DNA of 64,000 nt, from assembly GCF_000021565.1 (NCBI RefSeq), contig NC_012440.1, positions 1,194,210 through 1,258,209 on the forward strand. Reading direction: 5' to 3'. This document shows positions 26,767 to 44,558 of the stretch, one piece after another. Numbering within the stretch: position 1 is the first letter of the stretch; each line of letters opens with the position of its first letter. The position numbers and the translations under genes were made by a program. The DNA comes from Persephonella marina EX-H1. Its GTDB lineage: Bacteria; Aquificota; Aquificia; Aquificales; Hydrogenothermaceae. The notes beneath the pieces are model-generated. The model did not search any database. It was not told the origin of the DNA and saw only the letters and a list, made by a program, of their open reading frames with translations.

Positions 26767-26771
26767 ATTGT
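26767..26771. repeat. Target-site duplication, tRNA-His side
   Basis: ATTGT directly before the TGTAG terminus; the identical five bases follow the other terminus at 44559-44563. Five-bp duplications are the rule for Tn7-like DDE transposases. Confidence 0.85.
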
Positions 26772-26776
26772 TGTAG

Positions 26777-26837
26777 TTTTTCAGAAAAAATGAGACTTTT
26801 TCAGATAGGTTGAGACTCTTTTCAAATAAATTGAGAC
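26777..26837 (+). repeat. Tandem TnsB-type binding boxes, tRNA-proximal transposon end
   Basis: Three abutting boxes of 20-21 bp: 26777-26796, 26797-26816 and 26817-26837, all TTTTTCA(G)AxAxxxTGAGAC-like and each ending in GAGAC. A fourth weak GAGAC lies at 26852-26856. The tight tandem packing resembles the Tn7 right end. The start codon of the following gene (26842) lies right against the last box, so end-bound TnsB would probably repress it. Confidence 0.8.
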
Positions 26838-26841
26838 TATA

Positions 26842-27948
26842 ATGGAAAAAAGAGACTATACTCTACTTTTTGCGGACGAATTATATTTATCATCTAAATT
26901 TCGTGGATTTATAAATGGATATTTTATTAAGAGAATAAATACTAATTGGAATCATCCGATAGATATAGAATTGGTTAAAATACCTATTCCAATTTATTAC
27001 TTTAATACAATCAATTTAAAAAGAGGTTTTTGGGTTTATTTCTATCATAACACACCGTTTTTTCATGTCTTGAAAAATTATCCTAAACAATTGATTTATT
27101 TATATACTTCCCTGTTCGGAGACATCTCTCATTTGATAGAAAAAAAGAAACCCAAAAGCTCATCTGAAGAGTTTGAGTTTTATAGTTTTACGGAAAGGAC
27201 TTTCTTTGGTTCAGAAATTTGGGATTTTCCTATTAAGTTGTCTTTAAACAAATATAAAATAGAACATAGATATTTAAGAAACTTAAGAGAAATTAAATGT
27301 TTTTCAAGTCTTGCAAATAATTTTCCAAATTTAAGCTATTCATATATGGTAATATTTACTAAAAAATTATTTTGGTCACAAATTGAAAAAAGTATTTTTT
27401 ATTTCCGATTTGAAAATTTAAGAACCGAAGAAAATAAAAATAAAATTCTTTATATTAATTTTTACATTCCTATTTTTACATTATATCAATCTTTTATATT
27501 TTTCTTTAAATTTATTCAAGAATGGTTAATGAGCGATTTTCTCTTTTTTGGTAAGGACAATATAATAAAAGAAAATGGGAAAATTGTAAGAAAAGGCTCT
27601 AAGTTTTCAAAATTTGAACTTGCTTTCTTGGATTTCATTTTAAATAATGAACATATTTATAAAACTTTTGAAAAAATTTTTAACAAAATTGTAATTTCAA
27701 AAGATCATTTAATGAAATTAGAACCGTTTTTCATAGAAAATATTGAATTCCCAGTATGGATTAGTGGAACTATAATTAAAAAGAGATCTATAAAAAATAA
27801 CTTTGATTATGCAGATATATTAGTTTCTCGTATAAGACCAATCTGGGAACTTTTTGTAAATTGGGATGATATTAAATACTTAACATATCCAGAAAAATAC
27901 CACATTAGAAAATTAAGAAAAAGATTTGAGGAAGAGTATTTCTTTTAA
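26842..27948 (+). CDS. Cargo protein of unknown function at the tRNA-proximal end
   Basis: A 368-residue protein I do not recognise. Rich in Phe, Tyr, Ile and Lys, without a signal peptide or clear membrane domain, although FYIPIFTLYQSFIFFFKFIQ near residue 215 is strongly hydrophobic. It starts (MEKRDYTLLFADELYL) inside the transposon-end boxes with no ribosome binding site, possibly leaderless or started further in. The long clean frame in AT-rich DNA supports a real gene. Codon use is that of the element, not the core. It could be a transposition accessory factor or a defence gene; nothing decides this. Confidence 0.55.
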   Translation: MEKRDYTLLFADELYLSSKFRGFINGYFIKRINTNWNHPIDIELVKIPIPIYYFNTINLKRGFWVYFYHNTPFFHVLKNYPKQLIYLYTSLFGDISHLIEKKKPKSSSEEFEFYSFTERTFFGSEIWDFPIKLSLNKYKIEHRYLRNLREIKCFSSLANNFPNLSYSYMVIFTKKLFWSQIEKSIFYFRFENLRTEENKNKILYINFYIPIFTLYQSFIFFFKFIQEWLMSDFLFFGKDNIIKENGKIVRKGSKFSKFELAFLDFILNNEHIYKTFEKIFNKIVISKDHLMKLEPFFIENIEFPVWISGTIIKKRSIKNNFDYADILVSRIRPIWELFVNWDDIKYLTYPEKYHIRKLRKRFEEEYFF

Positions 27949-27984
27949 AAGTCAGATAGAGTTGTCTTATATTCTAAATGAATA

Positions 27985-28290
27985 TTAACAAAGGATGTAC
28001 AAGAGCTTTTATCAGAAATATATAGGATGGATGTAAGTTTATCCTTATTTACACAATCACGGACAGACTACTTCTTAGGATACAGGAGAAAAAATAGACC
28101 ATTAAATGGAATATACCCAGTAATCTATACAGCATATTCTGCAAAGTGATGTAGGATGGGAAGTATCCAAAGGATAGTAAATGTTGAAAGCATTAAATGA
28201 TTTAAAAGACAAGGTAGTAGAGGATGTAAAGAAACCTATAGTTTGTTGGGATAGAATATATGTTCAGCTTATTTTCCAGTTTGAGGATAG
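27985..28290 (+). pseudogene. Decayed IS256-family (mutator-type) transposase fragment
   Basis: Frame read from about 27988 gives TKDVQELLSEIYRMDVSLSL, then RTDYFLGYRRKNRPLNGIYP and VIY, matching the IS256-family block that runs [T/S]xDIxxxLxEIYGxxVSxxxIxxITD...WQNRPLxxxYPIxYLDA. After a stop the sequence resumes with MLKALNDLKDKVVEDVK (compare the xLxxLNDLKxRGVEDI block) and, after an internal deletion, WDRIYVQLIFQFEDRI (compare W...NL..FF.FP..IR). Several stops and missing blocks, including the catalytic residues, show it is dead. No terminal inverted repeats are visible. Confidence 0.6.
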
Positions 28291-28641
28291 GATTTAGGAT
28301 ATGGTAAATTTTACACAGTTATATAGACATTCCCCTCCGCATTCCCCATCCCAATTTACATAGCTATACTCCTGCATCTACTTCCTTATTTTGTTCTATC
28401 TTATATATTTTGGTAAACATCCTCTATCTATAAACTTTTTGAGCTATTTGCCACTGATTTTAGTTAATTATTACTTTAGGGAAAATAAGTCTCATATCGA
28501 TATTTCTTAAATCCTATTTTATTGGCTTAATTCCAGAATCAGCATTAATTTTAGCCGATGTTAAATCTTCCATGGTTTACCCAAACTTAGATTTTGCCTT
28601 TCAGGTTATTTAGGAAACTAAATTTTATCTTTCACTCAATC
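28291..28641. other. Non-coding stretch inside the transposon
   Basis: About 350 bp with stops in all frames, lying between the IS256 remnant and the 3' end of the defence operon. A minus-strand reading with KINADSG is faintly reminiscent of IS605 OrfB (INADxNGA) but too short to call. Probably scrap DNA. Confidence 0.4.
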
Positions 28642-29352
28642 TTAAAGATCTTCTAATATAAACTCATTTAACTGTCTTTTATAGGCTTCCCATTTAGGCA
28701 AAAACTTATCCATATAAGCTTTGAATTTTTTATTATGTTTTTTTTCAAAAAAGTGAATCATTTCATGGACTATTATGTATTCCAAACATTCTATTGGTTT
28801 TTTTATAAGTTCCAAGTTTATCCAAATTCTTTTAGCTTCTGGGTTACACGTACCCCATCTTGTTTTCATTTTTTTTATTTTAACTTCGTTAACTTTTATG
28901 CCTATTATTTTCTCCCATTTAGGTATTAAAGTCTCCAGTTCTTTCTTTAACTCTTTTCGAAGCCAGTTTTGATAATAATTTTCTCTCTGCTCTTGTGTAT
29001 AGTGCTTTGGAACATAAAAATATATATATTTTTTATTCTTTATTTCTATCTTGGGTCTTTTTGACTCTTCTATTCTTAAGAGATATCTTTGTCCTTTGAA
29101 ATAATGGCTTTCTCCTGATACATATCTCCTTTTGGTTTGTCTTGATTGAGACTGAAAATTCTTAATATGTTTTTTTATCCAAGGTAGTTTTTTAATAATA
29201 AATAATCTTACTGTTTCATCAGAAACACTTATTGGAACAGATACTCTTACTGTTCCCTCTGGAGGTAAAACATTTAGATGGAAGTTTTTTATATTTTTTT
29301 TATACACTAAAACTTCTAAGTCTTTAACTTTTATTAGTTTTTTCTCTACCAT
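28642..29352 (-). CDS. YgjP-like zinc metallopeptidase (DUF45)
   Basis: Predicted 236-residue zinc protease. The active-site motif is IIVHEMIHFFEKKHNKKF, that is HExxH with a downstream His, and the upstream MKTRWGTCNPEAKRIWINLEL is the conserved RWGSC-type block of the YgjP/DUF45 family. N-terminal half is basic and beta-rich. Two nt after hsdR, in the same operon; members of this family very often end type I restriction-modification operons, though their substrate there is unknown. Confidence 0.88.
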   Translation of the reverse strand: MVEKKLIKVKDLEVLVYKKNIKNFHLNVLPPEGTVRVSVPISVSDETVRLFIIKKLPWIKKHIKNFQSQSRQTKRRYVSGESHYFKGQRYLLRIEESKRPKIEIKNKKYIYFYVPKHYTQEQRENYYQNWLRKELKKELETLIPKWEKIIGIKVNEVKIKKMKTRWGTCNPEAKRIWINLELIKKPIECLEYIIVHEMIHFFEKKHNKKFKAYMDKFLPKWEAYKRQLNEFILEDL

Positions 29353-29353
29353 C

Positions 29354-32300
29354 TTAGTACTCTTCTTGTTTTAAGACTAATTCAAAGATTTTTTCAGTAA
29401 GTTCTCTATTATGTAAAACTTTATAGATTGCATTTTTTATTCTTCGTTCTTTTATTACGTTTCCTCTCCACGAATCTTGTTTAGCATTTATGATTACTTC
29501 ATCTAATTTATTTGTAAGTACTTCTCTGTTTTCAAAACCATCTAAAGCATCGTAAATAGCTCTTTTTGCTTTGCTATCTTTTATACTTTCTGGATAAGGA
29601 TTTTCCTCATCTTCCAATTTTAAAAGCATTTTTGTTAATTTTTCTATTTCTTTTAAATAACTTTCATAATCAATAACTTCTTTTTTTCTTTTGGCTACCA
29701 GTTCCTCTAGTATCTGGGACATTTTTTCATAATAAATAGGATTAACTTCTCTTTCATCTGTTATAAGCTTTCTTATGTTATTTTCTATTACTTCAGCAAT
29801 CGCTTCTTTACTTTTGCCTATGGTTCTTGGAAGCTTTTCAATAGCACTTTTTATTCCTTCTAATGCAACAATTTCTAGCAGAGATGTATCTTCAAATAAA
29901 GCTAATGTTTTGCTTTCTTCTGCACTTATATAGGTATCAATCAGATATCTCATTGCAGGGTCAAATACCTTTAGGTCTAAATAATCACTACTTATTAGTT
30001 TAAGTTCATCTCTTACAGCTGTATAATGTTCTACCTTTTTCTTTATTTCTTCTTGTTCTTTTTTGCTATAACCTATTTCATCAAGCTCATTAGCTACATT
30101 TGTGTATGTTCTGATTAAAGAAGAAACCTTTTTATAAAACTCAAGTCTTAATTGCTGTTTTTTTTCAGAGTTATCGCCAATGAAGTAATCTCTGTATTCA
30201 TTTATACCTTTTGGATGTTTTACGCTCTCCGTTATTAAATCAAGCTGTTCTAATAATTCGTCTAATTTTTTCTTGGCTTCTGTTAGTCTATCTTTTATTA
30301 ATCCTTTTACATCTTCTTTTTCAAATTCAGCAAAAGCTCCAGAAGTATAATCTTTTATAGCTTTTTCCATAGAATTGAATAAATCTCTATAATCAACTAT
30401 ATAGCCATAATCTTTATCAAACTCATCTCCTTTATCTTTATCATCAAGTCTATTTACTCTGCATATTGCTTGAAATAATCCGTGATCCTTCATAGGTTTG
30501 TCTATAAAAAGATAAGTAGCACTTGGAGCATCAAAACCTGTTAAAAGTTTATCTACTACTATTAAAAGTTTCATCTGTCCAGGCTCATCTATAAATTTTT
30601 TCTTTACATCTTTTTCAAACTTATCTATCCAATAATCTTTTACTGCTTCGTCTTCAGAAATATTATAATATTCAGCGATCATCTTTTTATAGACTTCATA
30701 TTTTTTTAGTTGCTCTGCTTCTCCTTCCTCTCCAGTCTCTTCTCCTTTTATACTCGTAATACTTGGTCTGTATGATGTAACTATGGCTAATTTGTTAAAT
30801 CCTTTTGATTTAAAAATTTCATAATACTTACAAGCTTCATATACACTTCCAGCAACAAGCATTGCATTTCCTCTACCTGATGCAAGTCTGGGTCTTATTT
30901 CAAAGTCAAAAATTATATCTGCCACTATTTTTTCCATTCTATCTTTTGAGCTATATAGTTTTTTAAGGGTTCCCCATCTTTGCTTTAACTGGGCTTTAGC
31001 TATATCTGATAAACCTTTAGTTTTAGTTTCAAACCATTTATCAATTTTTTCTTTTGAAACAACCTTTATATCCACATCCCTTGCTTCATATCTCAAATCA
31101 AGAACAACCTCATCATTAACAGCTTCATCAAATTTGTAGGTATGAATATATTTTCCGAATGTTTCTAATGTTGTGGGTTTATCTTTCTTTAAAAGAGGTG
31201 TTCCTGTAAAACCGATGAAAATAGCATTAGGTAAAAACTCTTTCATTGCTTTGTGTAATTTTCCTGATTGAGTTCTATGACATTCATCTACAAAGACAAT
31301 TATATCTCCTTTTGCTTTAAAGTCTTTGGGTAAGTCTTTTCTAAGCGCTTCTATATACTCATCATAATCCTTATCTGTTACCTCAGCTCTACCAAATTTA
31401 TGAATTAAAGAACATATTAGTCTTTCTTCTGTTTTATTAAGTTGATCCAATAAGTCTTTAGCCGATTTTGTTCTATAGATATCTTCGCCCACTCCTTTAA
31501 AAACCTTTTCAATCTGTTCATCAAGTTCAACTCTGTCCGTTATTATTAGAACTCTACCATTTGGATTATTTTCAAGTATCCATTTTGCAAGCCATACCAT
31601 TGTTAAGGATTTACCGCTACCCTGAGTATGCCAGATAATACCCCCTTCTCTTTGCTTTAAACTCCTTTGGGCTGCTTTTACTCCAAAATATTGGTTATGT
31701 CTTGGCAATTTTTTTATTCCAGCATCAAAAACAACAAAATCATGGATTATCTCAAGTAGTCTTTTTTTGTTTAAGAGTCTGTAAATATCACAATCTAAAA
31801 TATTATTAGATTTTTCACATTTATCTCTTGGCAATGTTCTTGGGATATTTTGCTTTTTATTATGGTCAAATTCTGGATTTTCTTCTTTCCATTCTAAATA
31901 ATACCTTTCTGGGGTTTCTATTGTTCCATATCTAAGTCCTTGAGTATCATTTCCAGCCATAACAAGTTGGATTGTTGAAAAAAAGTCCTGTATAAATTCT
32001 TTTTTCTGATTATCTAAATTCTGCCTGATTCCTTCAGATATAGATATCCTTGATCTTTTTAGCTCTAACACTCCAACAGCTATTCCATTTATATAAATCA
32101 CAATATCAGGTCTTTTGGTGTGTTTTCCTTTGATAGTTACTTCTTCAGCTATAGCAAAGTGGTTATTTTCGGGGTTTTCCCAATCGATAAAATCAACATG
32201 AACAGATTGCTCTGAAGGATTTGGTTTAATACTTATACCATATCTTAGTAGGTTGTAAATTTCTTTATTTTTGTCGTATAAACTTTTTTGCTGGTTTGTG

Positions 32301-32515
32301 GCAATTTTTTTTAGTTCGCTTATTGCTTTGTTTATTATTTTATCTTTATAACCTTGCTTTTTTAGAAAGTTAGTTAAATATTCTTCCTCTATATTTGAAC
32401 TATTTTCTCTTTTTTCCCAATTTCCAAGATAATCATATCCTAAGGCTTCTTGAAAAAATTTTACAACTCTATTTTGTGTTTCCCTTTCCCTTTGATTTAC
32501 TTTTATAATTTGCAT
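29354..32515 (-). CDS. hsdR: Type I restriction enzyme, R (motor/nuclease) subunit
   Basis: Translocates and cleaves unmethylated DNA as part of the HsdR2M2S1 complex. The N-terminal nuclease has RPDIVIYINGIAVGVLELK (PD...ExK, Asp137 and E151-L-K153). Superfamily 2 motor: Walker A WHTQGSGKS at 295-303, DECH box VDECHRTQSG at 409-418, GFTGTPL motif III, and a C-terminal helical domain binding HsdM. 1053 aa, full length and unbroken. Lies 2 nt downstream of the ABC ATPase gene and 2 nt upstream of the metallopeptidase. Confidence 0.97.
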   Translation of the reverse strand: MQIIKVNQRERETQNRVVKFFQEALGYDYLGNWEKRENSSNIEEEYLTNFLKKQGYKDKIINKAISELKKIATNQQKSLYDKNKEIYNLLRYGISIKPNPSEQSVHVDFIDWENPENNHFAIAEEVTIKGKHTKRPDIVIYINGIAVGVLELKRSRISISEGIRQNLDNQKKEFIQDFFSTIQLVMAGNDTQGLRYGTIETPERYYLEWKEENPEFDHNKKQNIPRTLPRDKCEKSNNILDCDIYRLLNKKRLLEIIHDFVVFDAGIKKLPRHNQYFGVKAAQRSLKQREGGIIWHTQGSGKSLTMVWLAKWILENNPNGRVLIITDRVELDEQIEKVFKGVGEDIYRTKSAKDLLDQLNKTEERLICSLIHKFGRAEVTDKDYDEYIEALRKDLPKDFKAKGDIIVFVDECHRTQSGKLHKAMKEFLPNAIFIGFTGTPLLKKDKPTTLETFGKYIHTYKFDEAVNDEVVLDLRYEARDVDIKVVSKEKIDKWFETKTKGLSDIAKAQLKQRWGTLKKLYSSKDRMEKIVADIIFDFEIRPRLASGRGNAMLVAGSVYEACKYYEIFKSKGFNKLAIVTSYRPSITSIKGEETGEEGEAEQLKKYEVYKKMIAEYYNISEDEAVKDYWIDKFEKDVKKKFIDEPGQMKLLIVVDKLLTGFDAPSATYLFIDKPMKDHGLFQAICRVNRLDDKDKGDEFDKDYGYIVDYRDLFNSMEKAIKDYTSGAFAEFEKEDVKGLIKDRLTEAKKKLDELLEQLDLITESVKHPKGINEYRDYFIGDNSEKKQQLRLEFYKKVSSLIRTYTNVANELDEIGYSKKEQEEIKKKVEHYTAVRDELKLISSDYLDLKVFDPAMRYLIDTYISAEESKTLALFEDTSLLEIVALEGIKSAIEKLPRTIGKSKEAIAEVIENNIRKLITDEREVNPIYYEKMSQILEELVAKRKKEVIDYESYLKEIEKLTKMLLKLEDEENPYPESIKDSKAKRAIYDALDGFENREVLTNKLDEVIINAKQDSWRGNVIKERRIKNAIYKVLHNRELTEKIFELVLKQEEY

Positions 32516-32517
32516 TT

Positions 32518-34743
32518 TTACTCCCTTAGTAATAAAGAAATATCTTCTGCATATAATTTTTTTAGTTCACCAATACTAACATCTACCAATGGCTCATACA
32601 TAAAAGCATTTATATGGATATACTCAGGAGTTATAATTAAAACTCTTTCTAATTTTTTCAATGTTTCGCTGTCATTTGAAATTTCTCTAAATCTCTCAAA
32701 CAAATATCTTGTAAATTTCCATTCATTTTCATCAATGTCGTTATTTAATTTGCTTAACATATACTTTTCTGCTTTCAATCTTGTTGCTATAGCCAAAACA
32801 ATCTTACCTTCTAGTTTTATATGGTTATCCCTATCATTTTTTATTATATCTGTTATATTAAATATCATCTCATATATATTTGTATTTAATTCTTCATTTG
32901 TAAATAAACTTGCAAAAAGATTACTTACATCGAAATTCTTAATATACTTTTCATAAATCTCTTTTAAATCCTTAAGCTTTATATTTTTACTTGGTTTATA
33001 ATGCAGACAGTATGTTAATTTTTTGTAATCTTCGCTGCTTTTTCCTTCAATATACTCTGCTAAATTCCTAATAAATGGAATTGTAGCTATAAAAATTTTT
33101 TTTGCATTTTTTTTATTTGTCCCAGAAGAACCATTTGCAAAATTTTCTAAATATTTTTTCCATTCCTCGAAGGGATTAGAAATTTCTTTTAGGTCATTTA
33201 GTTTGATTTTACCATTTGGTAATCTGTTTGCGATTTTACATTTATTTTTATTTACAATTATTCTACTTCTTATAGTTCTAAAAAAGTCAAAATTATGAGT
33301 TAAGATAATAATGTAAAAATTTTCATATTCTGCAATTTCTTTGAGATATTCAATAATTGCATATTTGTTCTTATAATCAAATGAGTCTGCAATATCATCT
33401 ATTATTATTATTGTATCCTTGCCTGATTTTTTTTGAGCCTCTAAGTCAAAAATAATGTCTAATAAATATAAAGCTCTTTTTTCTCCATTGCTTAATTTTG
33501 ATATGAGATTTTTTTTGTCGTTGTATTCTTTCTTATCTTCTCCGTCTTTAAAAATAAATTTTATACTCGGAACATCCTGTTTAAGGATAACTTCTTCTTT
33601 ATTCTCTATAGCCAATTCAAAAGGCATATCTATAAACTTATTATTAAAAATCTCTATTATCTTTTCCCAATCTGTTTCTTCATTGCGAGCTTTCTCTAAG
33701 AGGTTATTTAAATCTTCTTTGTATTTATTGTATTTTTCAATAAAATTTAATGATGACTCTTTTAGTTTTATCAAGTATGAAAGCCAAATTTTCTCTTTAA
33801 ATTTTTTCAAATTTTCAAATTCTACTATTATTTTGGGATTTTTTCGTAGTATAGAACGAAAATTTCTTAGTTTTTGGTTCCTATTTAAACCCTTGTCTAT
33901 TTTTTCAAATATACTTTTTAATTCTTCATTTTCTAAGATTTTTTTCTTTTGTTCTTCTAAGAACTTATTTAACTCTTTTTCATTATTAAACTCTTCTTTA
34001 TTAGTTCCATTTGATAAGCTAATGGTATGTCCTGCTTTAAAAAAATTGTTTCCTTTGAGACTTTTTATAACTTCATTGGCATTATAATGGTCAAAATTTT
34101 CTCTAAAGTATGGTGATTTATTGATAAGTTCTTTATACTTTTTTATATAATCTTCTATATGTTTCTTCACGTCCTTATTGCTTAAAAGATTTAAAACATC
34201 ATTATTAAAAATGTCTGAATATACCAACTCTGAATACTTAGAATAATTATCATCTTTTTCTTTTAATTTTTTATCAATTTCAGTAAGAAAATCTTCTAAA
34301 CTTTTATTAAATTCTTCTTTGAAAATATTTTCAATGTCTTTAGGTTTTACTTTTGAAATATTACTTAGTTCTTTTATCAATATATTTTTTTCATCTTTAA
34401 AATCTTTATAAATTTTATCATAATTAGCTCTTAACTTTTTACTTGCTAACAAAACGGAAATACTTTTAGAAGCATAATCTTCATTATATGATTCAATAAC
34501 AAATACATTTTCCCGATTTAAATCTTCACCATTTAGTTTTAATTCAACCTTAGTTTCTCTGTGTGGAAAATGTAAATCTTTTGTCTCTTTTTTTTCTGAA
34601 TAATCTTTAAAAGTTTTAGCAAAAGAGGTTTTCATTGTCCCATTTGGTGCATATATTGCAAAAACTCTGCCATTTTCGAAGTTAAACTCATAATCTAATT
34701 TTCTTATTCCATAACAATTTTCGAGTTTCACCTTCAATATCAT
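32518..34743 (-). CDS. ABC-type ATPase embedded in the restriction-modification operon
   Basis: A 741-residue protein with ABC/SMC-like ATPase halves around a long helical middle. Walker A is IYAPNGTMKTSFAKTF (32-40), unusual in having TMKT where GSGKT/S is normal; the ABC signature is LSNGEKRAL, Walker B IIIIDDIADSFD, and the switch His lies in ILTHNFDFFR. The C-terminus carries NAFMYEPLVDVSIGELKKLY. The layout recalls RloC/PrrC-like and other defence ATPases, but no nuclease motif can be assigned. Start chosen at 34743 (8 nt after GGGAGG), overlapping hsdS by 56 nt, so it is coupled to the specificity subunit. Probable phage-defence component; mechanism unknown. Confidence 0.75.
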   Translation of the reverse strand: MILKVKLENCYGIRKLDYEFNFENGRVFAIYAPNGTMKTSFAKTFKDYSEKKETKDLHFPHRETKVELKLNGEDLNRENVFVIESYNEDYASKSISVLLASKKLRANYDKIYKDFKDEKNILIKELSNISKVKPKDIENIFKEEFNKSLEDFLTEIDKKLKEKDDNYSKYSELVYSDIFNNDVLNLLSNKDVKKHIEDYIKKYKELINKSPYFRENFDHYNANEVIKSLKGNNFFKAGHTISLSNGTNKEEFNNEKELNKFLEEQKKKILENEELKSIFEKIDKGLNRNQKLRNFRSILRKNPKIIVEFENLKKFKEKIWLSYLIKLKESSLNFIEKYNKYKEDLNNLLEKARNEETDWEKIIEIFNNKFIDMPFELAIENKEEVILKQDVPSIKFIFKDGEDKKEYNDKKNLISKLSNGEKRALYLLDIIFDLEAQKKSGKDTIIIIDDIADSFDYKNKYAIIEYLKEIAEYENFYIIILTHNFDFFRTIRSRIIVNKNKCKIANRLPNGKIKLNDLKEISNPFEEWKKYLENFANGSSGTNKKNAKKIFIATIPFIRNLAEYIEGKSSEDYKKLTYCLHYKPSKNIKLKDLKEIYEKYIKNFDVSNLFASLFTNEELNTNIYEMIFNITDIIKNDRDNHIKLEGKIVLAIATRLKAEKYMLSKLNNDIDENEWKFTRYLFERFREISNDSETLKKLERVLIITPEYIHINAFMYEPLVDVSIGELKKLYAEDISLLLRE

Positions 34744-36052
34744 TATTTTTTCCCTCCCCATTATTTATAGTTTTTAATCTAACCTTTCCAGTCAAAAGAA
34801 GCTCCATAGCTCCTTTTTTAATTTGTTCGTATTTTTCTTTTTTCTTTTTAAGGGCTTCTATTTCGGCATCCATATCTGAAAGGATTTTAGCAATGGCTTG
34901 TTGTTCTTCAAGGGTTGGGGGAATATATATTGATAGTTCTTTAACACTATCTATTTTTAAATTATTAACTCCAGAGCCTGCGGCTAATAGGTCAAAACTT
35001 TTTTGAACTTTATAGGAAGATAATAGATAATAAAAAAATTCAATGTTTTGTTTTCCCTTTCTTTTTAATAATAACCAACCATCATGGATACAACCTTTAA
35101 TTTTACTTATATATGGTCTACCATAACTCATTGAGTTAGATAAAATTAAATCATTATAGTTCACAACTACTGATTGTTTAGCTCCTTCTTGAGTTATCTT
35201 AATTTCGGTTTTTACCAAATATTTATCTTCAGGCTTAACATCGCTTATTTTAATCCAATTGATACCATTGCTTTTTTTCGTAATATACTTTTCTATAGGT
35301 CTTGGTGAAGCTCCTCTTTTTATATCAAAAACTTCCCCTAATTTCATCTTAACCCATTTACCCTTAAACCCTTGAAGTCTTTTTTTTCCTGTTAGAAGCT
35401 CCTGCATTGCTCCTTTTTTGATGAGTTTCTTTTTTTCTATGAGTTTATCAAGGCTTTCTATAAGGTTATCAATATCACTTAAAACTTTAGCTATATCTTT
35501 TTGTTCGGGGAGGGGTGGGAGAGGTAGTAAAAGATTTGATAATTGATATTGTGAAAGTGTTGGTATGGCTTGACCATCTAAAACTTTATTTAATAAATTT
35601 TTAAAAGTAAAAGAATTCAAGTAAAAATTAATAAATTTATTATTAGTCCTTTTGAAAACCTTTATTATTACTAACTGTGGATTTATTGTAGTAGGAAATA
35701 CGACTTTTTCAATAATAGCTACTTTACCCAAAGTTGAACCTGTCTTTACAAATATAATATCCCCTGTTTTAATTTTTATTTCAGGGGATTCTTCATATTT
35801 ATTCCATGAAACAAATGTTAGATTTGATTTTAAATTTAGCTTACCATCTACTATATTAATAGGACTCAAAGAAATAGCACCTCTCCAAGGCTTTACAATA
35901 TCCTTTTTTGTATATCCTCTAAAGCCTATTCTCCCTACAATTTTTGAAACTTCTCCCAACCTCTTAACTTCCCAATCCTCTGGAATAATCCCTATTTCAG
36001 TTTTTTTATATCCTGTTGGTATTTTATTATTCATTATTTTTTCCTCTATCAA
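34688..36052 (-). CDS. hsdS: Type I restriction-modification specificity subunit
   Basis: DNA-recognition subunit with two target-recognition domains. Repeat 1 opens YKKTEIGIIPEDWEVKRLGE and ends LPPLPEQKDIAKVLSDID...KKGAMQELLTGKKRL; repeat 2 opens GKWVKMKLGEVFDIKRG and ends IPPTLEEQQAIAKILSDMD...KKGAMELLLTGKVRL, the two conserved spacer helices. The frame continues about 28 residues past the usual TGKVRL end, reading through the ATPase start, so the original stop may have been lost. It begins within the 3' end of the HEPN gene (26-nt overlap). The recognition sequence cannot be predicted. Confidence 0.95.
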   Translation of the reverse strand: MIEEKIMNNKIPTGYKKTEIGIIPEDWEVKRLGEVSKIVGRIGFRGYTKKDIVKPWRGAISLSPINIVDGKLNLKSNLTFVSWNKYEESPEIKIKTGDIIFVKTGSTLGKVAIIEKVVFPTTINPQLVIIKVFKRTNNKFINFYLNSFTFKNLLNKVLDGQAIPTLSQYQLSNLLLPLPPLPEQKDIAKVLSDIDNLIESLDKLIEKKKLIKKGAMQELLTGKKRLQGFKGKWVKMKLGEVFDIKRGASPRPIEKYITKKSNGINWIKISDVKPEDKYLVKTEIKITQEGAKQSVVVNYNDLILSNSMSYGRPYISKIKGCIHDGWLLLKRKGKQNIEFFYYLLSSYKVQKSFDLLAAGSGVNNLKIDSVKELSIYIPPTLEEQQAIAKILSDMDAEIEALKKKKEKYEQIKKGAMELLLTGKVRLKTINNGEGKNNDIEGETRKLLWNKKIRL

Positions 36053-36797
36053 TTAATTCATAAGCCAAACTTGCCAAAACTATATAATGAATAGCCAAAT
36101 TTTTATCTATTTTATAAGCAGGTGTGTGAACCTTTTCATTGCGAAAAAATTGAATTGCCATGTGTAAAAATTTTACTCCTTCAAAAAAATCCCTTTCAGT
36201 TTCGTTTTGAGGTGAATGTCCAAAAATCTTTTCATAATTTTGTTCTCTAAATGCTTCTGTTGCTCTTTCTTTGCCTGTAATCTCTCTTAATTTTTCTCTT
36301 ACAATTTTAAAAGACTCTTCAACAGCATGAAAATAATGTCCGTCTGCTAATAATTCCTTGACATGAGCAAAAACTTTATTGTTTAGAACTATATTGATAT
36401 TTCCATTAATTATGTTTGCTTCTAAATTCGATACTTCTTTATTTAAATCAATAATATTGTTATCTAATTTTTTAGCTATTTTATAAGCCGCCTTTATTAA
36501 CTCATCGGGATAATTTTCTTTTTTGAAATCACCTATTAAAATTTTATGCTCAATGTATTCTATTAGCTTTATAATACTTTTGGCCACTGTTTTGTTGTCT
36601 TCAATTCTCCAGAAAGCACGTAATCTATTTGCTTTAGAACCTGAGCGATAATTGTATTTGTCATCAAATATATTAACGTTAAGCTCTTCTTTAAAAAATT
36701 CCTCCATTGATAAATTGCTAAAATCTGAGACATATCCATCACCCATTTCAAAAAGTTTTTCTAAAACCTGTTTATCAAAGGTGTTTAAATTTGCCAT
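36027..36797 (-). CDS. AbiJ-like protein with C-terminal HEPN (TIGR02391-type) domain
   Basis: A 256-residue soluble protein. Residues 1-80 (KLFEMGDGYVSDFSNLSMEE, NIFDDKYNYRSGSKANRLRA) resemble the N-terminal domain found in AbiJ-type abortive-infection proteins. The C-terminal part (about 140-250: HVKELLADGHYFHAVEESFK ... FFRNEKVHTPA) is a TIGR02391/Ymh-like domain and carries RNEKVH at 219-224, an RxxxxH HEPN ribonuclease motif. It sits between hsdM and hsdS, 10 nt after hsdM, so it is an inbuilt part of the operon. A back-up suicide RNase triggered when restriction fails is a reasonable guess, not shown. Confidence 0.72.
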   Translation of the reverse strand: MANLNTFDKQVLEKLFEMGDGYVSDFSNLSMEEFFKEELNVNIFDDKYNYRSGSKANRLRAFWRIEDNKTVAKSIIKLIEYIEHKILIGDFKKENYPDELIKAAYKIAKKLDNNIIDLNKEVSNLEANIINGNINIVLNNKVFAHVKELLADGHYFHAVEESFKIVREKLREITGKERATEAFREQNYEKIFGHSPQNETERDFFEGVKFLHMAIQFFRNEKVHTPAYKIDKNLAIHYIVLASLAYELIDRGKNNE

Positions 36798-36807
36798 TTT
36801 ATCCTAC

Positions 36808-39504
36808 CTAAAAACTAAATCCCATTGTTTTTAAATGCTCTTTTACTTTTTGCTCGTATTCTTCTGCTTCTTTCTCAATTTCAGGTAATGGATTTTCGTA
36901 TCTTTCATAAAGTTCTTTTATTCTATTAATCAGTTTCATAATTAATTCTTCAATCTCATCATTTACCGCTTCTTTTAAAGATTTCAACCATTTTTTATTT
37001 ATTACTAAATCTCTAACTTCTTCCTGTGTAAAACTTTTATACTTTTCAAGAAGTTTTTTATCAAGCTCTTTTTCTTTCTCTTTTATCTCTTTCTTAAGAT
37101 CTGCCTCTTTTTCTAAAAGGTTTAGGTATTTTTCTAAAATACTAATCTCTTTTAAAAATTCTCTATTAGTATCTTTTGCTATTAAATTTTGAGTTTTTTC
37201 CTCAAGTTCATTTTTTAAACTTTTAATTTCTTTCTTTTTATCTTTTATGACTTTTAAAATTTCTAAGAGTTCGTTTAGAAGTTTTTTTTCTTTCTCATCA
37301 GAAGTAGTTTTAGCTTTTTCTTTTAAATACTTTTGAGAAAGCTCTTTTTTAGAGAAAATACCTAAAGAATGGGCTAATTCCAATTTGTTTAGCATTAATA
37401 TCTCCAATTCTTTTTCAAGTCCTAATAATTGATTATATTCATCTTCGAAATATTCCTCCCACGCTAATCTTTTAAAATCTTCTAAATTTTCTAAAACATC
37501 AGATTTTTTCTCTACCTCAAATAACGCTTCATCTTCTCCAGAATTTTCTTCTTTTAACTCTTCTCTTTGTCTGATAATTTCATCTTTTTGTGCTTCCAAG
37601 CTTTCAATTTCTTCTTTTTCTTCTTTGAAAAATTCATTTATAACAATATCTTTTGGCAAAATATCACAAGTCCAACCTTTGTCTATTTCTTTACCTTTCT
37701 TGTTCTTCTCTATTATTCTATAAGGTTCTGCAACCCAGCCTTTTTCAATAATCATATAGATATCATCTTTTATTGTTTCATCCCAGTAATCCATAAGAAT
37801 TTGATAAATTGCATACTCATCAATCAGATTTAAAGGTTTATAAAATTCAAGTAAACTTTCTGAAATAGTTTTGATAAACTCTTTTGGATGAGTGTTTTTA
37901 TCAATTCCTGTTAAAATAGGCATATTTTCATCTGTCCATTTTTCAAATACTGCTAAAGCATGTGATTTGAACTCTTTCACTTCTTCCGCATTTTCTATGA
38001 TTTCTGTTAAGTTATCAATATCAACATTCAAAGTGTAATAACCTTCTTCTTTTTTTCTAAATAACCGATTTTTTAAATCATTAAAAACATTTAAAATTTC
38101 TATCTTGTCTATATCCCTTTTTGGAATGCCTCCATGTAAATGTGCATAAATATCTTGAATATCTTCTTTTTCTGTACTTTCAATATATCTTGGAATATTT
38201 AAGTTGTAGTCATTTTTCTCAATCTCCTCAAGGCTTACCATACGGGAATAGCCAGGGATTTCTTTAAAATTAACAAATGTATCTACAATTTTATGAATAT
38301 CCCTTTCTCTTAATCTGTTTTTGTTTCCGTCTTTCCTGTATCCCTTAGATGCATCAATTATAAAAATTCCTTTTCTTGCTTGAGCATTTTTTTTGTCTAT
38401 TACTAAAATAACAGCAGGAATACCAGTTCCATAAAATAGGTTTGGAGGCAAGCCTATAATACCCTTTATATATCCTTTTTTAATCAAATTCTTTCTAATC
38501 TCAGCTTCAGCATTCCCTCTAAATAAAACACCATGAGGCAAAATAATTGCACCTTTTCCTTTAGACTTTAGAGACTTTATAAAATGAAGTAGAAAAGCAT
38601 AATCTCCATTTTTAGCTGGAGGAACTCCATCGTCAAATCTGTGGTATTGGTCATTTTTTACATTAACACCATCCATCCAGTTTTTTTGTGAAAATGGTGG
38701 ATTTGCAACTGCAAAATCAAATGTTTTTAAACTTCCATCAGGATTTTTAAATTTAGGGTGTGATAATGTATTCCCTTGTGCTATTTCCGCATCAGGTCTT
38801 CCGTGCAGTATCATATTCATTCTTGCAATATTAGCTACATTTATATCTATTTCTTGTCCGTAAAGGGATATTTTTACAGGAGCTTCATCTGCTACTTTTA
38901 AAAGCAGAGAACCACTTCCACAAGTTGGGTCGTATGCTGTTTGGTCTGGTGAGGTTGCTTTTTCAACACCGATAATTTTAGCCATTACTCTTGATACTTC
39001 AGCAGGAGTGTAAAACTGTCCTTTGCTTTTACCTGCTTCTGTTGCAAATTTCTTCATAAAGTATTCATATACGTCACCGAGGATATCGTCTCCATCCGAT
39101 CTGTTTCTTGAAAAATTAAGCTCTGGATTTTCAAAAATACCTATAAGCTTTGTTAATCTATCAACCTTTTCTTTTCCAGTGCCAAGCTTTGTATCATCAT
39201 CAAAATCAACTATATCTATCACACCCTTTAAACCATTTTCTTCAGCTAATTTTGATAAAACTATATTTATTCTTTCTCCAATATTTTTTTTACCTTTTGC
39301 TTCTATTAAATCGTCAAAGCTTCCACCTTCAGGAACTATAAATCCATCTTCATTATAAGGGTCTCCTTTGTATTTGTCTGTTACATACTTAACAAATAGG
39401 ATAGTTAATACATAGTCTTTATACTGGCTTGCATCCATTCCCCCTCTGAGTGCATTTGCAGCCTCCCAAAGATGATTGTAAAGTTGTGTTTTCTTGATTG
39501 CCAA
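36808..39504 (-). CDS. hsdM: Type I restriction-modification methyltransferase, long form
   Basis: N6-adenine methyltransferase of the type I complex. HsdM N-terminal helical domain (LWEAANALRGGMDASQYKDY), then GQFYTPAEVSRVM at 162-174, SAM-binding DPTCGSGSLLLKV at 192-204 and catalytic NPPFSQKNW at 268-276. At 898 aa it is far longer than the usual 500: from about 590 a Lys/Glu-rich coiled coil runs to the end. This enlarged type is known but uncommon. The TTG start at 39504 follows AGGAGGG. First gene of the hsdM-HEPN-hsdS-ATPase-hsdR-YgjP operon. Confidence 0.95.
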   Translation of the reverse strand: MAIKKTQLYNHLWEAANALRGGMDASQYKDYVLTILFVKYVTDKYKGDPYNEDGFIVPEGGSFDDLIEAKGKKNIGERINIVLSKLAEENGLKGVIDIVDFDDDTKLGTGKEKVDRLTKLIGIFENPELNFSRNRSDGDDILGDVYEYFMKKFATEAGKSKGQFYTPAEVSRVMAKIIGVEKATSPDQTAYDPTCGSGSLLLKVADEAPVKISLYGQEIDINVANIARMNMILHGRPDAEIAQGNTLSHPKFKNPDGSLKTFDFAVANPPFSQKNWMDGVNVKNDQYHRFDDGVPPAKNGDYAFLLHFIKSLKSKGKGAIILPHGVLFRGNAEAEIRKNLIKKGYIKGIIGLPPNLFYGTGIPAVILVIDKKNAQARKGIFIIDASKGYRKDGNKNRLRERDIHKIVDTFVNFKEIPGYSRMVSLEEIEKNDYNLNIPRYIESTEKEDIQDIYAHLHGGIPKRDIDKIEILNVFNDLKNRLFRKKEEGYYTLNVDIDNLTEIIENAEEVKEFKSHALAVFEKWTDENMPILTGIDKNTHPKEFIKTISESLLEFYKPLNLIDEYAIYQILMDYWDETIKDDIYMIIEKGWVAEPYRIIEKNKKGKEIDKGWTCDILPKDIVINEFFKEEKEEIESLEAQKDEIIRQREELKEENSGEDEALFEVEKKSDVLENLEDFKRLAWEEYFEDEYNQLLGLEKELEILMLNKLELAHSLGIFSKKELSQKYLKEKAKTTSDEKEKKLLNELLEILKVIKDKKKEIKSLKNELEEKTQNLIAKDTNREFLKEISILEKYLNLLEKEADLKKEIKEKEKELDKKLLEKYKSFTQEEVRDLVINKKWLKSLKEAVNDEIEELIMKLINRIKELYERYENPLPEIEKEAEEYEQKVKEHLKTMGFSF

Positions 39505-39764: not shown

Positions 39765-40934
39765 TCAAAGCTCTACGGTTCTTCTTTTATCTAAATAACA
39801 ATCAAACATTTTAGATAATTTTTTGTAGCTTGGTTTTATTCCTTTTTTCTTTAAATATTTAACTGCACTTTTAATTTCTTCATCCGTTGGGAAATAATGT
39901 TTATTACTAAATTGTTTAATAAGCTCATCATACCAGAAAGGAATGTATTCAATACCTCTGTTTAGAAATGGAAATCCTATTTTATTATCTTTAATATATT
40001 TTTCAAAACTATCTTTACTTTTAAATATCTCCATAGCTACTGTGAATAAAATATAGTGTTCTTTTATAGATAGATCTTCTAGAAATCTTTTCTTTTTGTT
40101 TTTCTCTTCGGGAAGTTGGATATTTAATAAATGAGATTCTTCGTTTAGTAATTCGATTGTTCGGAAATTATAAAAATATAAAAATCTTAAAACTTGCTTA
40201 AGTATAGGAAAAAAGAAAATAGATAAAATGGGTTTTCCTTCAAATATAAAAACTCCTGATTCCAATATTTCATTTATTTTCTGTATATTTTTGAAACCAC
40301 TCGATAATTTGGATACATACTTGATAGGAGACTGACTAAAAGAAAATCCACATTTATGACAGTGATATTCTTTTATATCATATTTTCTTTTGTTTGGAGA
40401 AAATACTTCTCCACATTCTGGACAGTTATCGTATAAAAAACATTTATGCTTTAAACAAATTGTAGAAAAAGATAACCTCCAGTATTTTTTTAAATATTGT
40501 TCTTTACTTTCTTTTAAACATAAAGGACAAAATCTTATCGCTTTTTTTATAGCTCTTCCTTTTCTAAATCTCGGCTGTAAAATAAATAAATTTCTGTTTG
40601 ATTTATTTAAATTTATAAACAGGTATCCTTCATACGATTTTAATGTCATACCTAAAAAGTCTTCTTTTTTATAATAGGTTTTAGAAACTAACTGTTTAAT
40701 AAAATTTTCATTGATCCCAACTAAATCAATATCTCTGTGAAATATATGTCTATCAAAATTATAAAAATATAAAGATATAAAAGCTGGAGGGTTCATATAG
40801 TGAGCATAAGCCTCTCTTAATAGCCATGAAGATAAAAGCTCATTTTTTAATGGCTTTAGTCTTATTGGAAATTTAGAGTTTTTATGTTTGAAAGTATTTG
40901 AGTAAGATGATTGGCTTTTAAAATAATCTCCCAA
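39765..40934 (-). CDS. tniQ: TniQ/TnsD-like target-selection protein
   Basis: Chooses the insertion site for the Tn7-like transposase. 389 aa with the TniQ opening PIRLKPLKNELLSSWLLREAY and the double zinc ribbon: C136, C139, C160, H163, C171, C174, C192 and C195. The C-terminal region (PTDEEIKSAVKYLKKKGIKP) reads like a helix-turn-helix DNA-binding segment, as in TnsD-type proteins that read a fixed chromosomal site; here that would be the tRNA-His locus. Shorter than Tn7 TnsD (about 500). Start is TTG at 40934. Last of the tnsABC-tniQ run. Confidence 0.9.
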   Translation of the reverse strand: MGDYFKSQSSYSNTFKHKNSKFPIRLKPLKNELLSSWLLREAYAHYMNPPAFISLYFYNFDRHIFHRDIDLVGINENFIKQLVSKTYYKKEDFLGMTLKSYEGYLFINLNKSNRNLFILQPRFRKGRAIKKAIRFCPLCLKESKEQYLKKYWRLSFSTICLKHKCFLYDNCPECGEVFSPNKRKYDIKEYHCHKCGFSFSQSPIKYVSKLSSGFKNIQKINEILESGVFIFEGKPILSIFFFPILKQVLRFLYFYNFRTIELLNEESHLLNIQLPEEKNKKKRFLEDLSIKEHYILFTVAMEIFKSKDSFEKYIKDNKIGFPFLNRGIEYIPFWYDELIKQFSNKHYFPTDEEIKSAVKYLKKKGIKPSYKKLSKMFDCYLDKRRTVEL

Positions 40935-40951
40935 TTTTATAAATTCCTATA

Positions 40952-41863
40952 TTAATTTAAATGTATAATATCTCTACTTTGTGATAATGGAATATAATCA
41001 ATTTCCTTTAAATCTTCCTCAGATATTTTTTCTTTTCCAGTCTTTATAGCATTTATTGCCATTAGATTTACTATTTCTACAATTTCACCTATTAATCCTT
41101 CACTATAAGTTAGTATCTTATTAGCTAATTGCATATTTTTGTGAATATAAGAAGGTTTTCTTAAAGGAAGAGTCTTCTCTAAAGAGAGTAATAATCCTAT
41201 GTAATTTTTATTAAATGACCATCTCTCCAAATAGACGGGTCTAAATCTACTGCTTATCTGTTTGTCAGTACTAACGGCATTAACTGCTTCTATTATTCCT
41301 GCTAAAACTATAGGAATTTTTAAAATATTTGATAAGTTTTTTATAGCATTCATAAACTCTCGCTGTTTACTGAAATTTCCGCTTAAAATATTGTGAATTT
41401 CATCAATTATTAGCATTCTTACTTTGAAAACTTTAAAGAAATATACGATTTTTTCTTCTTGTAAAGATAAAGTTTCGCTCTTCCTTACTTCAATATTCAA
41501 GCTCATAAATATGTAATTATACAAAGCCTTAATATCGGGTCTGGGTGGAGCTTGAACCATAACAACAGGGATTTGTGCTGCTTCTATTTCCTCAATAGGA
41601 GGATTTAAATCATGGAATTTTTTGATAATACTTGTTTTTCCATTATTACTCTCTCCTACTAATAGTAAATTAGGCATTCTGCTTCTTGGAGGTTCGTTCA
41701 TTAAATTATTTAATTTCTCTATAATTCTTTTTGCCTTTGGGTAATAAACAAACTTTTCGCTTTTAATGTAATTAATTCTTATTTTATCCGATGCATATAA
41801 CTTTTCTTTTGTTTTTTTCTCTAGAAACTTTAGGTACTCTTTATCAAAATCATAAAGACCCAT
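40952..41863 (-). CDS. tnsC: TnsC/TniB-like AAA+ transposition regulator
   Basis: ATP-dependent link between target selector and transposase. Walker A GESNNGKTS at 70-78, Walker B LIIDEIHN at 151-158, followed by the sensor region IPIVLAGIIEA. At 303 aa it is TniB-sized rather than Tn7 TnsC-sized (555), so it lacks the large extensions of Tn7 TnsC. Starts behind AGGAG, 4 nt after the tnsB stop. Confidence 0.92.
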   Translation of the reverse strand: MGLYDFDKEYLKFLEKKTKEKLYASDKIRINYIKSEKFVYYPKAKRIIEKLNNLMNEPPRSRMPNLLLVGESNNGKTSIIKKFHDLNPPIEEIEAAQIPVVMVQAPPRPDIKALYNYIFMSLNIEVRKSETLSLQEEKIVYFFKVFKVRMLIIDEIHNILSGNFSKQREFMNAIKNLSNILKIPIVLAGIIEAVNAVSTDKQISSRFRPVYLERWSFNKNYIGLLLSLEKTLPLRKPSYIHKNMQLANKILTYSEGLIGEIVEIVNLMAINAIKTGKEKISEEDLKEIDYIPLSQSRDIIHLN

Positions 41864-41867
41864 GATA

Positions 41868-43727
41868 TTATTCTCCTATATCAATATCAAAGTTTGGAAT
41901 ATTATCTAAATCAAAATCTACATTTAAATTAGTATCTTTTTTCTGAGTATTATTGCTACTTCCTAAGTATTCTTTCCTATTTTCTAAATAATTTTTAGAT
42001 GACTTCTTACGGCGTACTTTTTTAGATTTTTTTACAGCCTCCTTTTCTATTTCTCTAAGTTTTTTAAATTCTTTAAAAATATTAACTTCATTCTTTTGAT
42101 CAATTTTTTTCTTAGACAAATATTTCTTAACCTGTTTTAACTCTGAGAGAGTTATTTTAGGATTGAGTGTATTCCTATAAGGTATTTCAAAATAATGTTC
42201 TATGGAAGAATCCCATAAATAAATTTTACTTAAGTCCATAGGGTCGTATTTTATTGTATATTTTTTATTCCTTTCGAGATTTATGTATTTTTTCAAGCTT
42301 TCACTGAAATATTTTATTCCAAATAAACTAATACCATCTTTTTGTATACTTCTATATACAGTTGGTAATAATGATATTCTTATTCTTTCAATTTCATCTG
42401 TAGGTATTATTGGAGGTAGTCCTATACTTCTATTTTTTTCATCAAAAATACCTTTTTTATATTTTTCTTCAGGAGATATACCTAAAGATGAATGCTTCTT
42501 TTTATGATATATGTTCACAATATAACTAGCTATGTATTTCTCAAGTTCAAATAACGTATAAGCAGAATGCTTTTCTGAGTTATAATTCTCCCTATAGGTT
42601 TTATTGGAAAATGTTGTACCTGGTAGATTGTGCATTTCCTCATTAAGAGTTCTCATAAATCTTTCTATATGTCCTCCAAAATGAGGAGATCCTTTAGGTC
42701 TATAGTTTATTTCGATTTGATACATATCACAAAAATCCTTTAATGCTCGACTGTGAAATTCTTTTGCATTATCTAAATGTAAAGACTTAGGAACACCGTA
42801 TATAATCCACGCACCTTCTATTCCTAATTTTTCTAAATATTCTTCTTTAGTAGATATACCTAGCATTAATAATTGACCTATTGAAAAGACACTTGGGAAT
42901 TCTAATGAAATAAAAAAACTGTAAACCATTCTACTATATATATCCATAGCTATAGTTATCCAAGGTCTGCCTACAGGTTGCCTGTGTATTTCATCTACTA
43001 CAATTATGTCAAGTAAAGTATGATCTATTTGAATAACTTCTAAGGGGAAATTTACTTCAAAACTTTTTTCAGAGCTTTTAAACTTACTTAAGTATTTAGT
43101 TTTTCCATACCTTTTTTTACATACTTCTTGTTTATCAAGGTCATTAGCTCTTCTCCAAACAGTGGAAAGGGATGGAGGTTTTAAGTTGTTTTCTTCACAA
43201 AAGATACATATTTCATTATAAATTCTACTAATAGAATATTTTTGCTTTGACAAGTACTTTTCTTTTAGAAAGAGTTGAATTATATCTTCTACTTCATCAT
43301 TAAATTTGGTTTTTCTTTTTTTTAAAAAACATCTATTTGGAACTAATGATTCTAAAGATTCTGTTTTTTCAAAACTCTTTATCCATCTGTAAAGTGTAGA
43401 CACAGATAAATTGAATTCTTTTGCCCTTTTTATTACATCTTTTTTACAACGTGAACTGGTTAAAAGTGGTTTTATAATTTCATACCTTCTTTTTGCTATT
43501 TCAAATTCTTTTGATGATTTGTCTGAAAACTCACTATTTACTATCTTATTAAATTTATTCTTAAGATTTTCATCGTATGGTTCTATATCTTTAACCTTTA
43601 TTATTTCTGAGATTCCATTTTCTAAATCCTTAGCTATGACACTTTGTAAATCAGATTTAAAAGATAAGATCTCATAAAGTTTATCCTTATATAAAAACTT
43701 AGTTCCTTGCTTAATGGATATTTTCAT
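41868..43727 (-). CDS. tnsB: TnsB/TniA-like DDE transposase
   Basis: Cuts and joins the transposon 3' ends. 619 aa: N-terminal helix-turn-helix domains (SSRCKKDVIKRAKEFNLSVS, TLYRWIKSF) that bind the end boxes, then an integrase-like core with Asp235 (IQIDHT), Asp319 (HLDNAKEF) and Glu355 (HFGGHIER), all three catalytic residues intact, and a basic C-terminus for TnsC contact. ATG follows AAGGAG. The tnsA-coded 3' end lies 10 nt upstream. Confidence 0.95.
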   Translation of the reverse strand: MKISIKQGTKFLYKDKLYEILSFKSDLQSVIAKDLENGISEIIKVKDIEPYDENLKNKFNKIVNSEFSDKSSKEFEIAKRRYEIIKPLLTSSRCKKDVIKRAKEFNLSVSTLYRWIKSFEKTESLESLVPNRCFLKKRKTKFNDEVEDIIQLFLKEKYLSKQKYSISRIYNEICIFCEENNLKPPSLSTVWRRANDLDKQEVCKKRYGKTKYLSKFKSSEKSFEVNFPLEVIQIDHTLLDIIVVDEIHRQPVGRPWITIAMDIYSRMVYSFFISLEFPSVFSIGQLLMLGISTKEEYLEKLGIEGAWIIYGVPKSLHLDNAKEFHSRALKDFCDMYQIEINYRPKGSPHFGGHIERFMRTLNEEMHNLPGTTFSNKTYRENYNSEKHSAYTLFELEKYIASYIVNIYHKKKHSSLGISPEEKYKKGIFDEKNRSIGLPPIIPTDEIERIRISLLPTVYRSIQKDGISLFGIKYFSESLKKYINLERNKKYTIKYDPMDLSKIYLWDSSIEHYFEIPYRNTLNPKITLSELKQVKKYLSKKKIDQKNEVNIFKEFKKLREIEKEAVKKSKKVRRKKSSKNYLENRKEYLGSSNNTQKKDTNLNVDFDLDNIPNFDIDIGE

Positions 43728-43736
43728 GGCGTCTCC

Positions 43737-44365
43737 TTATTGTAGAAACAAAACAGAATCTACGGACAGTTCCTTTCGTAAGTTTGTCCTCAATTCTTTT
43801 TTGTATAATAGAAACCAAATAACGGGTAATACTTTGCTTTTTTCTTCTATCTGAAGTAAATCTTTTATTGATTTACTACCGTACTTTGATAGAAAACAAA
43901 AAATTTTTCCACTAATATCATCAAAATTTTCTGGTTTGATTCTGTGTAATCTCAAAAACTCTATATTCTTCAACAGAGTCTCATTTAGATCTTCATCAGT
44001 AAAAACTTTAAATTCATAACCGTTTTTTAGACAATAACTTTTTATAGTTTCTAATTTATTAATTAATTTCTTATCTCCCTTATCTATTTCACTCTTATAT
44101 TTTATTTTATTTCTCCTATAACTTCTTTTCCGTTCTTATAGATGATATAAACATCAGGTATATATATAACTTTTCTGTTATTAACTTCACCTAGAATCTC
44201 TATAGGTTGTTCTATATATTTATCTACATTTTCATCATACTCTAACATTAGGAATATTTTTTTCTCCAGTTGAGATTCAAATTCTACTCGTCTATTATTT
44301 TTTATACTAAAAAATGAACCTGCTACAGAACGTGACTGGATAGGAATTTTTCTAATTTTTTGCAT
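43737..44365 (-). pseudogene. tnsA: TnsA endonuclease, interrupted by a -1 frameshift
   Basis: TnsA cuts the 5' strands so that transposition is cut-and-paste. The first 87 residues carry the nuclease triad: Glu in VEFESQLEKK, Asp in IYIPDVYI and ExK in GEIK, then stop at TAA near 44102. Reading shifted by -1 at the A-rich ATAAAATAAAATA continues without a break as KYKSEIDKGDKKLINKLE ... NETLLKNIEFLRLHRIKPEN ... to 43737, the winged-helix C-terminal domain that contacts TnsC. Joined, the product would be about 210 aa, normal for TnsA. Either a recent inactivating indel, a sequencing error in an A-run, or frameshifting. Confidence 0.8.
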
Positions 44366-44558
44366 AGCTATAACCTATACAAACTCTTTTTAATTCTTAA
44401 GCTTAAAGGTAAAGTCTCAAACGAAAAGTTGCAAGCTTTCTGAAAAAGATAAGTGTAGTTTCAATGTTTTTGAAAAAAGTCTCAATTCTTATGAAAAAAA
44501 ATTACGATAAATAGATATTTAGATCATAATTTGGTATCATTATATGTGAAAAACTACA
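44366..44558. repeat. Distal transposon end with spaced TnsB-type boxes
   Basis: Boxes in inverse orientation: 44414-44433 (GTCTCAAACGAAAAG, partial), 44458-44477 and 44479-44498 (GTYTCAATxxTTxTGAAAAA), and a terminal box at 44534-44553, ending ACTACA at 44558. The roughly 35-bp gap before the terminal box makes this the spaced, Tn7-left-like end. The tnsA start is only about 50 bp inside the innermost box, so TnsB binding may autoregulate the tns genes. Confidence 0.75.

Follow-up and report, generated by a model that had tools for sequence, protein, structure and literature searches.

Tn7-like transposons that lie downstream of tRNA genes, and the acquisition of such sites through TnsD/TniQ proteins, have been described before (PMC8649781, PMC11406308): the CRISPR-associated transposon (CAST) CyCAST homes to a point 30-33 nt downstream of tRNA-Leu, while Tn6022 requires TnsF to find comM, and how short TniQ proteins manage when no partner is present is recognized as a puzzle (PMC10293859). 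Insertion of Tn7 itself is orientation-specific (PMC2918618), and TnsA is not obligatory in the superfamily, several groups of which lack it (PMC8649781). Here we describe a 17,787-bp Tn7-like element at positions 26772-44558 of a 64-kb stretch of the genome of the deep-sea thermophile Persephonella marina EX-H1 (hereafter the window), and consider it likely, if short of certain, that this transposon homed to a fixed point past a tRNA-His gene with its own TniQ as the reader, its host gaining a type I island. A preliminary description of the same DNA held tRNA-reading elements of this kind to be known mainly as CRISPR-associated, and thought that the tRNA-His site looked uncommon in a hyperthermophile; the precedents cited above do not bear out the idea that tRNA sites outside CRISPR systems are exceptional, and both the tRNA site and the type I cargo have counterparts among Tn7-like elements. 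What sets the element apart is a placement with relatives that insert in comM and close to a clade that inserts in dprA, together with the absence of TnsF, the reversed orientation and a base pair used twice.

Element boundaries and attachment site

The attachment region and the element borders comprise the following features.

26667..26740, plus strand: tRNA-His (GTG), intact, presumed attachment gene (ARAGORN; Rfam RF00005)
26767..26771, plus strand: left target-site duplication ATTGT (sequence inspection, blind end search)
26772..26837, plus strand: left (cargo) end, terminal TGTAGTTTTTCA and three TnsB-type repeats (26777, 26797, 26818)
44428..44558, minus strand: right (tnsA) end, four TnsB-type repeats
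44559..44563, plus strand: right target-site duplication ATTGT, common to the present and an older element
44564..44608, plus strand: remnant left end of the older element, two TnsB-type repeats
45067..45507, plus strand: lipoprotein gene outside the element, directly after tRNA-His in empty-site genomes

The element opens with TGTAGTTTTTCA at 26772, closes with TGAAAAACTACA at 44558, and carries terminal inverted repeats of 12 bp. A blind search of the window for TGT..ACA ends flanked by a 5-bp duplication returned this pair as its sole result, and TnsB-type 20-mers, expected by chance at about 0.6 per strand in shuffled sequence, occur three times at the left end, four times at the right end, twice in the remnant and once elsewhere in the 64 kb. 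The locus thus has the end structure of a Tn7-like transposon, with arrays of TnsB sites left and right, termini of the form TGT..ACA and a 5-bp duplication, and the preliminary description was right to see both termini and the ATTGT copies and to call the element complete at both ends and tRNA-adjacent; its spacing of 33 nt is to be corrected to 31 nt from the tRNA-His 3' end to the element, and the duplication lies 26 nt past the tRNA. The G+C content of 27.5%, against 35-37% in the flanks, fits a recent acquisition.

Nine genomes from a different genus of this family have an empty syntenic locus that reads tRNA-His, lipoprotein gene, tRNA-Leu, tRNA-Leu, in most cases with lnt upstream. Since a homologue of the lipoprotein gene lies beyond the element at 45067, this empty order in relatives identifies the 17.8 kb plus the remnant as an insertion, and the doubt that related genomes might offer no empty counterpart is removed. 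The survey of Aquificota tRNA-His sites that had been proposed alongside yielded these empty sites and no further filled one: among 136 Aquificota genomes, searched by TnsB and by tRNA flank, no other was found to have this element at tRNA-His. Insertion at a fixed distance downstream of an intact tRNA gene is seen here in the 31-nt spacing, the double use of the site and the empty loci of relatives.

The double use is recorded directly after the right ATTGT by a second left end, TGTAGTTTTTCAGAAAATATGAAACTTTTTCAGATAGATTGAAAC, which shares 41 of 46 bases with the present left end and is decayed beyond; like the orientation of the element, it had escaped the preliminary description. Reading away from the tRNA, 26 nt are followed by ATTGT, the new element, the second ATTGT and the old left end; this order indicates that an older element had already occupied that base pair with identical orientation, and that the present one then went in on its tRNA side. 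Neighbouring insertions that give rise to additional ends are known in Tn7-like elements (PMC8649781). A ribbon-helix-helix antitoxin-like gene broken by a frameshift in an A run lies at 44737-44992, past the remnant end and ahead of the lipoprotein gene.

Two relatives are likewise tRNA-adjacent. The element of a Thermodesulfobacterium metagenome-assembled genome (G139) is complete, has the duplication TAAAT and stops 7 nt short of tRNA-Arg; that of G549 has its left end, with three repeats, 27 nt from a tRNA-Arg gene, and its right junction lacks a matching duplication. The spacings of 31 nt at tRNA-His and 27 nt in G549 are close to the published 30-33 nt. At tRNA-His the cargo end faces the tRNA 3' end and the tnsA end points away, and the cargo end is turned toward the tRNA 3' end in all three cases. 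Repeated use of one base pair, together with tRNA-adjacent relatives in the same orientation, argues for active tRNA targeting.

Alternatively, the tRNA could be incidental, the site being an insertion hot spot whose flank was shaped by some other tRNA-His mobile element, or one where the older end directed the second insertion. The flank (26741-26766) does contain AGCTAATAACT, which recurs after tRNA-His copies in three other genera (L145, L146 and L147; G084, G067 and G071), with one variant base in L146 and the form AGCTAATAATT in G067; in G071 (G071:C114) a large serine recombinase gene lies immediately next to the copy, and the tnsA end of our element faces the older left end rather than the tRNA. 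Nevertheless, a prior end cannot account for the first insertion, and two insertions at one base pair, besides two further tRNA-adjacent relatives in the same orientation, make an incidental tRNA improbable.

Transposition genes

The transposition module occupies the right part of the element.

39765..40934, minus strand: tniQ, 389 aa, likely target selector (Pfam TniQ, 9.7e-31; AlphaFold (AF2) model; Foldseek)
40952..41863, minus strand: tnsC, 303 aa, TniB-size AAA+ regulator (Pfam TniB, 2.3e-74; best PDB match VchTnsC)
41868..43727, minus strand: tnsB, DDE transposase, 619 aa (best PDB match Tn6677 TnsB)
43737..44365, minus strand: tnsA, frameshifted (both halves match TnsA homologues separately; frames read)

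With a TnsB DDE transposase, a TnsC ATPase and a TniQ/TnsD protein, the element is a member of the Tn7-like transposons. The tnsA-tnsB-tnsC-tniQ set had been reported as visible; tnsB, tnsC and tniQ have intact reading frames, but in tnsA a frameshift had been overlooked. Its N-terminal part comprises 87 aa and stops directly after GEIK, the catalytic ExK motif, with the remainder in another frame, and the TnsA homologues matched by both halves bear Pfam TnsA domains. A programmed frameshift is conceivable, but the break falls at a tandem 5-bp AAAAT, which would explain it more simply, and nothing like a strong slippery sequence is evident. Because the frameshift strikes at ExK, this copy is probably unable to cut and paste; the lesion probably arose after insertion, leaving the copy immobile or only cointegrate-forming.

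Kinship with comM- and dprA-inserted elements

The TnsB of the element is 44% identical to that of G131, 39% to those of G099 and G103, and 37% to that of G023; the elements of G131, G099 and G103 interrupt comM, with the duplications GAGGG in G131 and GGGGA in G099. In a TnsB tree of 87 rows, 36 of them comM-inserted and with Tn5053-type TniA remote, the element belongs to a supported clade of 11 rows, most of them from thermophiles and vent bacteria, and the TniQ tree recovers nearly the same clade; the two trees that had been suggested as a check thus agree on a group with both comM- and tRNA-inserted members. When Campylobacterota and other relatives were added, the TnsB clade grew to 13 rows (Shimodaira-Hasegawa-like approximate likelihood ratio support 97), five of them comM-inserted and three tRNA-adjacent, within which the exact position of the window's element is not fixed by the tree; in the extended TniQ tree its neighbours are rows inserted in comM, with moderate support (94).

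Elements inserted in comM within or near the clade include L017/L018 (G131), L026 (G099), L062, G168, G192, G214, G212, G512 and G626, whereas the host's own comM is intact as a 526-aa frame. A profile search of the G131, G099 and L062 comM elements, and of these three only, did not find TnsF; in the records examined TnsF was detected in only five, none of them in the window's clade of that set, and targeting of comM may commonly do without TnsF. In the G099 element a TnpB/OrfB-like gene lies between tnsC and tniQ (L026 7091-8356) and is absent from the near copy G103.

A separate, related clade consists of elements inserted in dprA, which, like comM, is a natural-transformation gene. It has support 96 for six Campylobacterota members (G389:C1, L197/L217; G449:C1, L201/L221; G169:C1, L206/L226; G415:C1, L202/L222; G379; G411) and 100 when two rows whose target is not known are included; four have 5-bp duplications (AGTAT, ACAAC, AATCA and TTGGA), and a text search of the literature returned nothing published on Tn7-like elements in this gene. 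Related elements also form a 12-row Campylobacterota clade (G334, G346, G457, G183, G390, G148, G482, G509, G333, G516, G266 and G485), none of which was found to be inserted in comM or dprA. The end scans used did not find duplications for G023, L142, L060, L061 or G346, the G136 element (L060) runs off its contig, and a search of viral contigs gave one distant TnsB. On a Nitrosophilus labii plasmid (L142 12101-18929) two consecutive tnsA-tnsB pairs precede a single tnsC-tniQ.

Reading of the target

The AF2 model of TniQ (predicted local distance difference test score, pLDDT, 86) combines a zinc-finger TniQ core with C-terminal helix-turn-helix-like helices at residues 333-388, and a Foldseek search with it retrieved TniQ/TnsD structures only, with low whole-chain TM-scores. 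We propose that TniQ would bind the conserved tRNA gene through this C-terminal helix-turn-helix, that TnsC would then be recruited, and that TnsB would join the ends at a distance of 26-31 nt past the tRNA gene, which would stay intact, with the host gaining a type I restriction-modification island. TniQ is therein the likely, if unproven, tRNA reader.

Several observations weigh against this proposal. The element is found at tRNA-His in one genome only; the spacing of 7 nt in G139 differs from 31 nt; and the cargo end is turned toward the tRNA, the opposite of Tn7, whose tnsA-proximal right end (Tn7R) faces glmS. At 389 aa the TniQ is short, whereas published tRNA-reading TnsD proteins have long multi-helix-turn-helix C-termini, and its nearest row is that of the comM-inserted G131 at 40-41% identity, so that sequence alone cannot separate a tRNA reader from a comM inserter. 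The C-terminal part of TniQ differs between tRNA and comM members, yet most have one type of it; G139 and G626 have none.

A second possibility is that TniQ serves as an adaptor only and that the tRNA region is recognized by a distinct selector, either a host protein acting in trans or the product of the following gene.

26842..27948, plus strand: 368-aa orphan gene at the left end

In other systems short TniQs depend on a partner, such as TnsF for comM (PMC10293859), similar TniQs serve comM- and tRNA-inserted elements, and the orphan stands at the cargo end in the place that TnsE-type genes occupy in relatives, itself without known relative: it has no match in Pfam, NCBIfam, PADLOC, plasmids or viral contigs, and one marginal match only (E 0.0096) in Aquificota genomes. 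Among those TnsE-type genes, the TnsE_C match of the G139 fragment is weak (0.11), and the fragment is homologous to the G131 gene. A single-sequence structure model of the orphan was useless (pLDDT 34). On the other hand, the orphan lies on the other strand and outside the tniQ operon, the tRNA-Arg relative G549 has a TnsE-type gene in its place, and TniQ is modelled with a C-terminal helix-turn-helix-like region of its own. The orphan may be a separate selector and may equally be ordinary cargo, and we regard a selector other than TniQ as rather unlikely, though by no means negligible.

Guidance by a CRISPR RNA supplied in trans would fit the many CAST attachment sites that are tRNA genes (PMC11406308) and the distant relationship of the element's TnsB to those of I-F3 and V-K systems. 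Searches inside the element, however, gave no cas gene, as had been noted from the start, no CRISPR-like match to the attachment site and no RNA family apart from the tRNA; the longest exact match is 13 nt, A/T-rich and upstream of the tRNA (shuffles, 10-12 nt). Neither the Cas effector nor the guide array of a CRISPR-associated transposon is thus present, and such guidance is highly implausible.

Cargo

Six genes between the orphan and tniQ make up the cargo.

28642..29352, minus strand: YgjP/SprT-like metallopeptidase (Pfam PF01863, 4.8e-63)
29354..32515, minus strand: hsdR, type I restriction subunit
32518..34761, minus strand: AAA_13-like ATPase, candidate defence gene PDC-S46 (PADLOC 1.2e-241; Pfam AAA_13)
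34688..36052, minus strand: hsdS, specificity subunit
36027..36797, minus strand: Hypoth_Ymh/TIGR02391 protein
36808..39504, minus strand: hsdM, methyltransferase

As restriction-modification is the commonest defence cargo of Tn7-like elements (PMC8649781), the type I cargo here is ordinary. The claim of a defence cargo stands; the abortive-infection role attached to it is a conjecture from family names, which for the Ymh-family protein may or may not apply. A PDB search with the AAA_13/PDC-S46 ATPase gave no relative.

Discussion

The element family seems to change its insertion target easily. It is conceivable, and we advance this tentatively, that the thermophile, vent and Campylobacterota clade, with its short TniQ and no detectable TnsF, inserts precisely in comM, in dprA or beside tRNA genes through repeated target change with the core kept, whether by re-tuning a TniQ of about 400 aa with one helix-turn-helix or by exchanging unrecognised selectors such as the 368-aa orphan. 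Tn7-like elements are under development as programmable insertion tools, and target choice by a short TniQ in the absence of Cas proteins, TnsF or a long TnsD is an open question (PMC10293859). The clade offers natural pairs from hot environments (comM versus tRNA-His, with TniQs about 40% identical) for swapping target-reading parts and is a possible source of thermostable site-specific transposases, while any model has to account for the base pair used twice and for the reversed orientation.

Comparison with known systems

The element is neither a classic Tn7 nor a Tn5053, as was originally recognized. With Tn5053/Tn402 it shares a TniB-size TnsC and TniQ, but TniA is a distant branch (L144), and members of that family have no TnsA and rely on a resolvase and res-site targeting, whereas here tnsA, now broken, is present and no resolvase was found in the element. 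Like the I-B2 and I-D CASTs PmcCAST and CyCAST, it lies some 30 nt past a tRNA gene (PMC10293859); those CASTs differ in their fused TnsAB, long dedicated TnsD and Cas genes from the separate TnsA and TnsB, single short TniQ and lack of Cas seen here. Like Tn7, the element has three left and four right TnsB sites, a 5-bp duplication and a safe-site insertion downstream of an essential gene; unlike Tn7, it has another target, a short TnsC/TniB, no recognisable TnsE and the opposite end toward the target. From the comM-inserted Tn6022/AbaR-type elements it departs in lying beside a tRNA with comM intact, in having no TnsF by profile search, and in carrying an orphan in the tnsE place and a broken tnsA. 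Yet it shares with them separate tnsA and tnsB, a TniB-size tnsC and a short tniQ in one operon, the 5-bp duplication, the cargo-end position at which its relatives keep a TnsE-type gene, and a common TnsB and TniQ ancestry.

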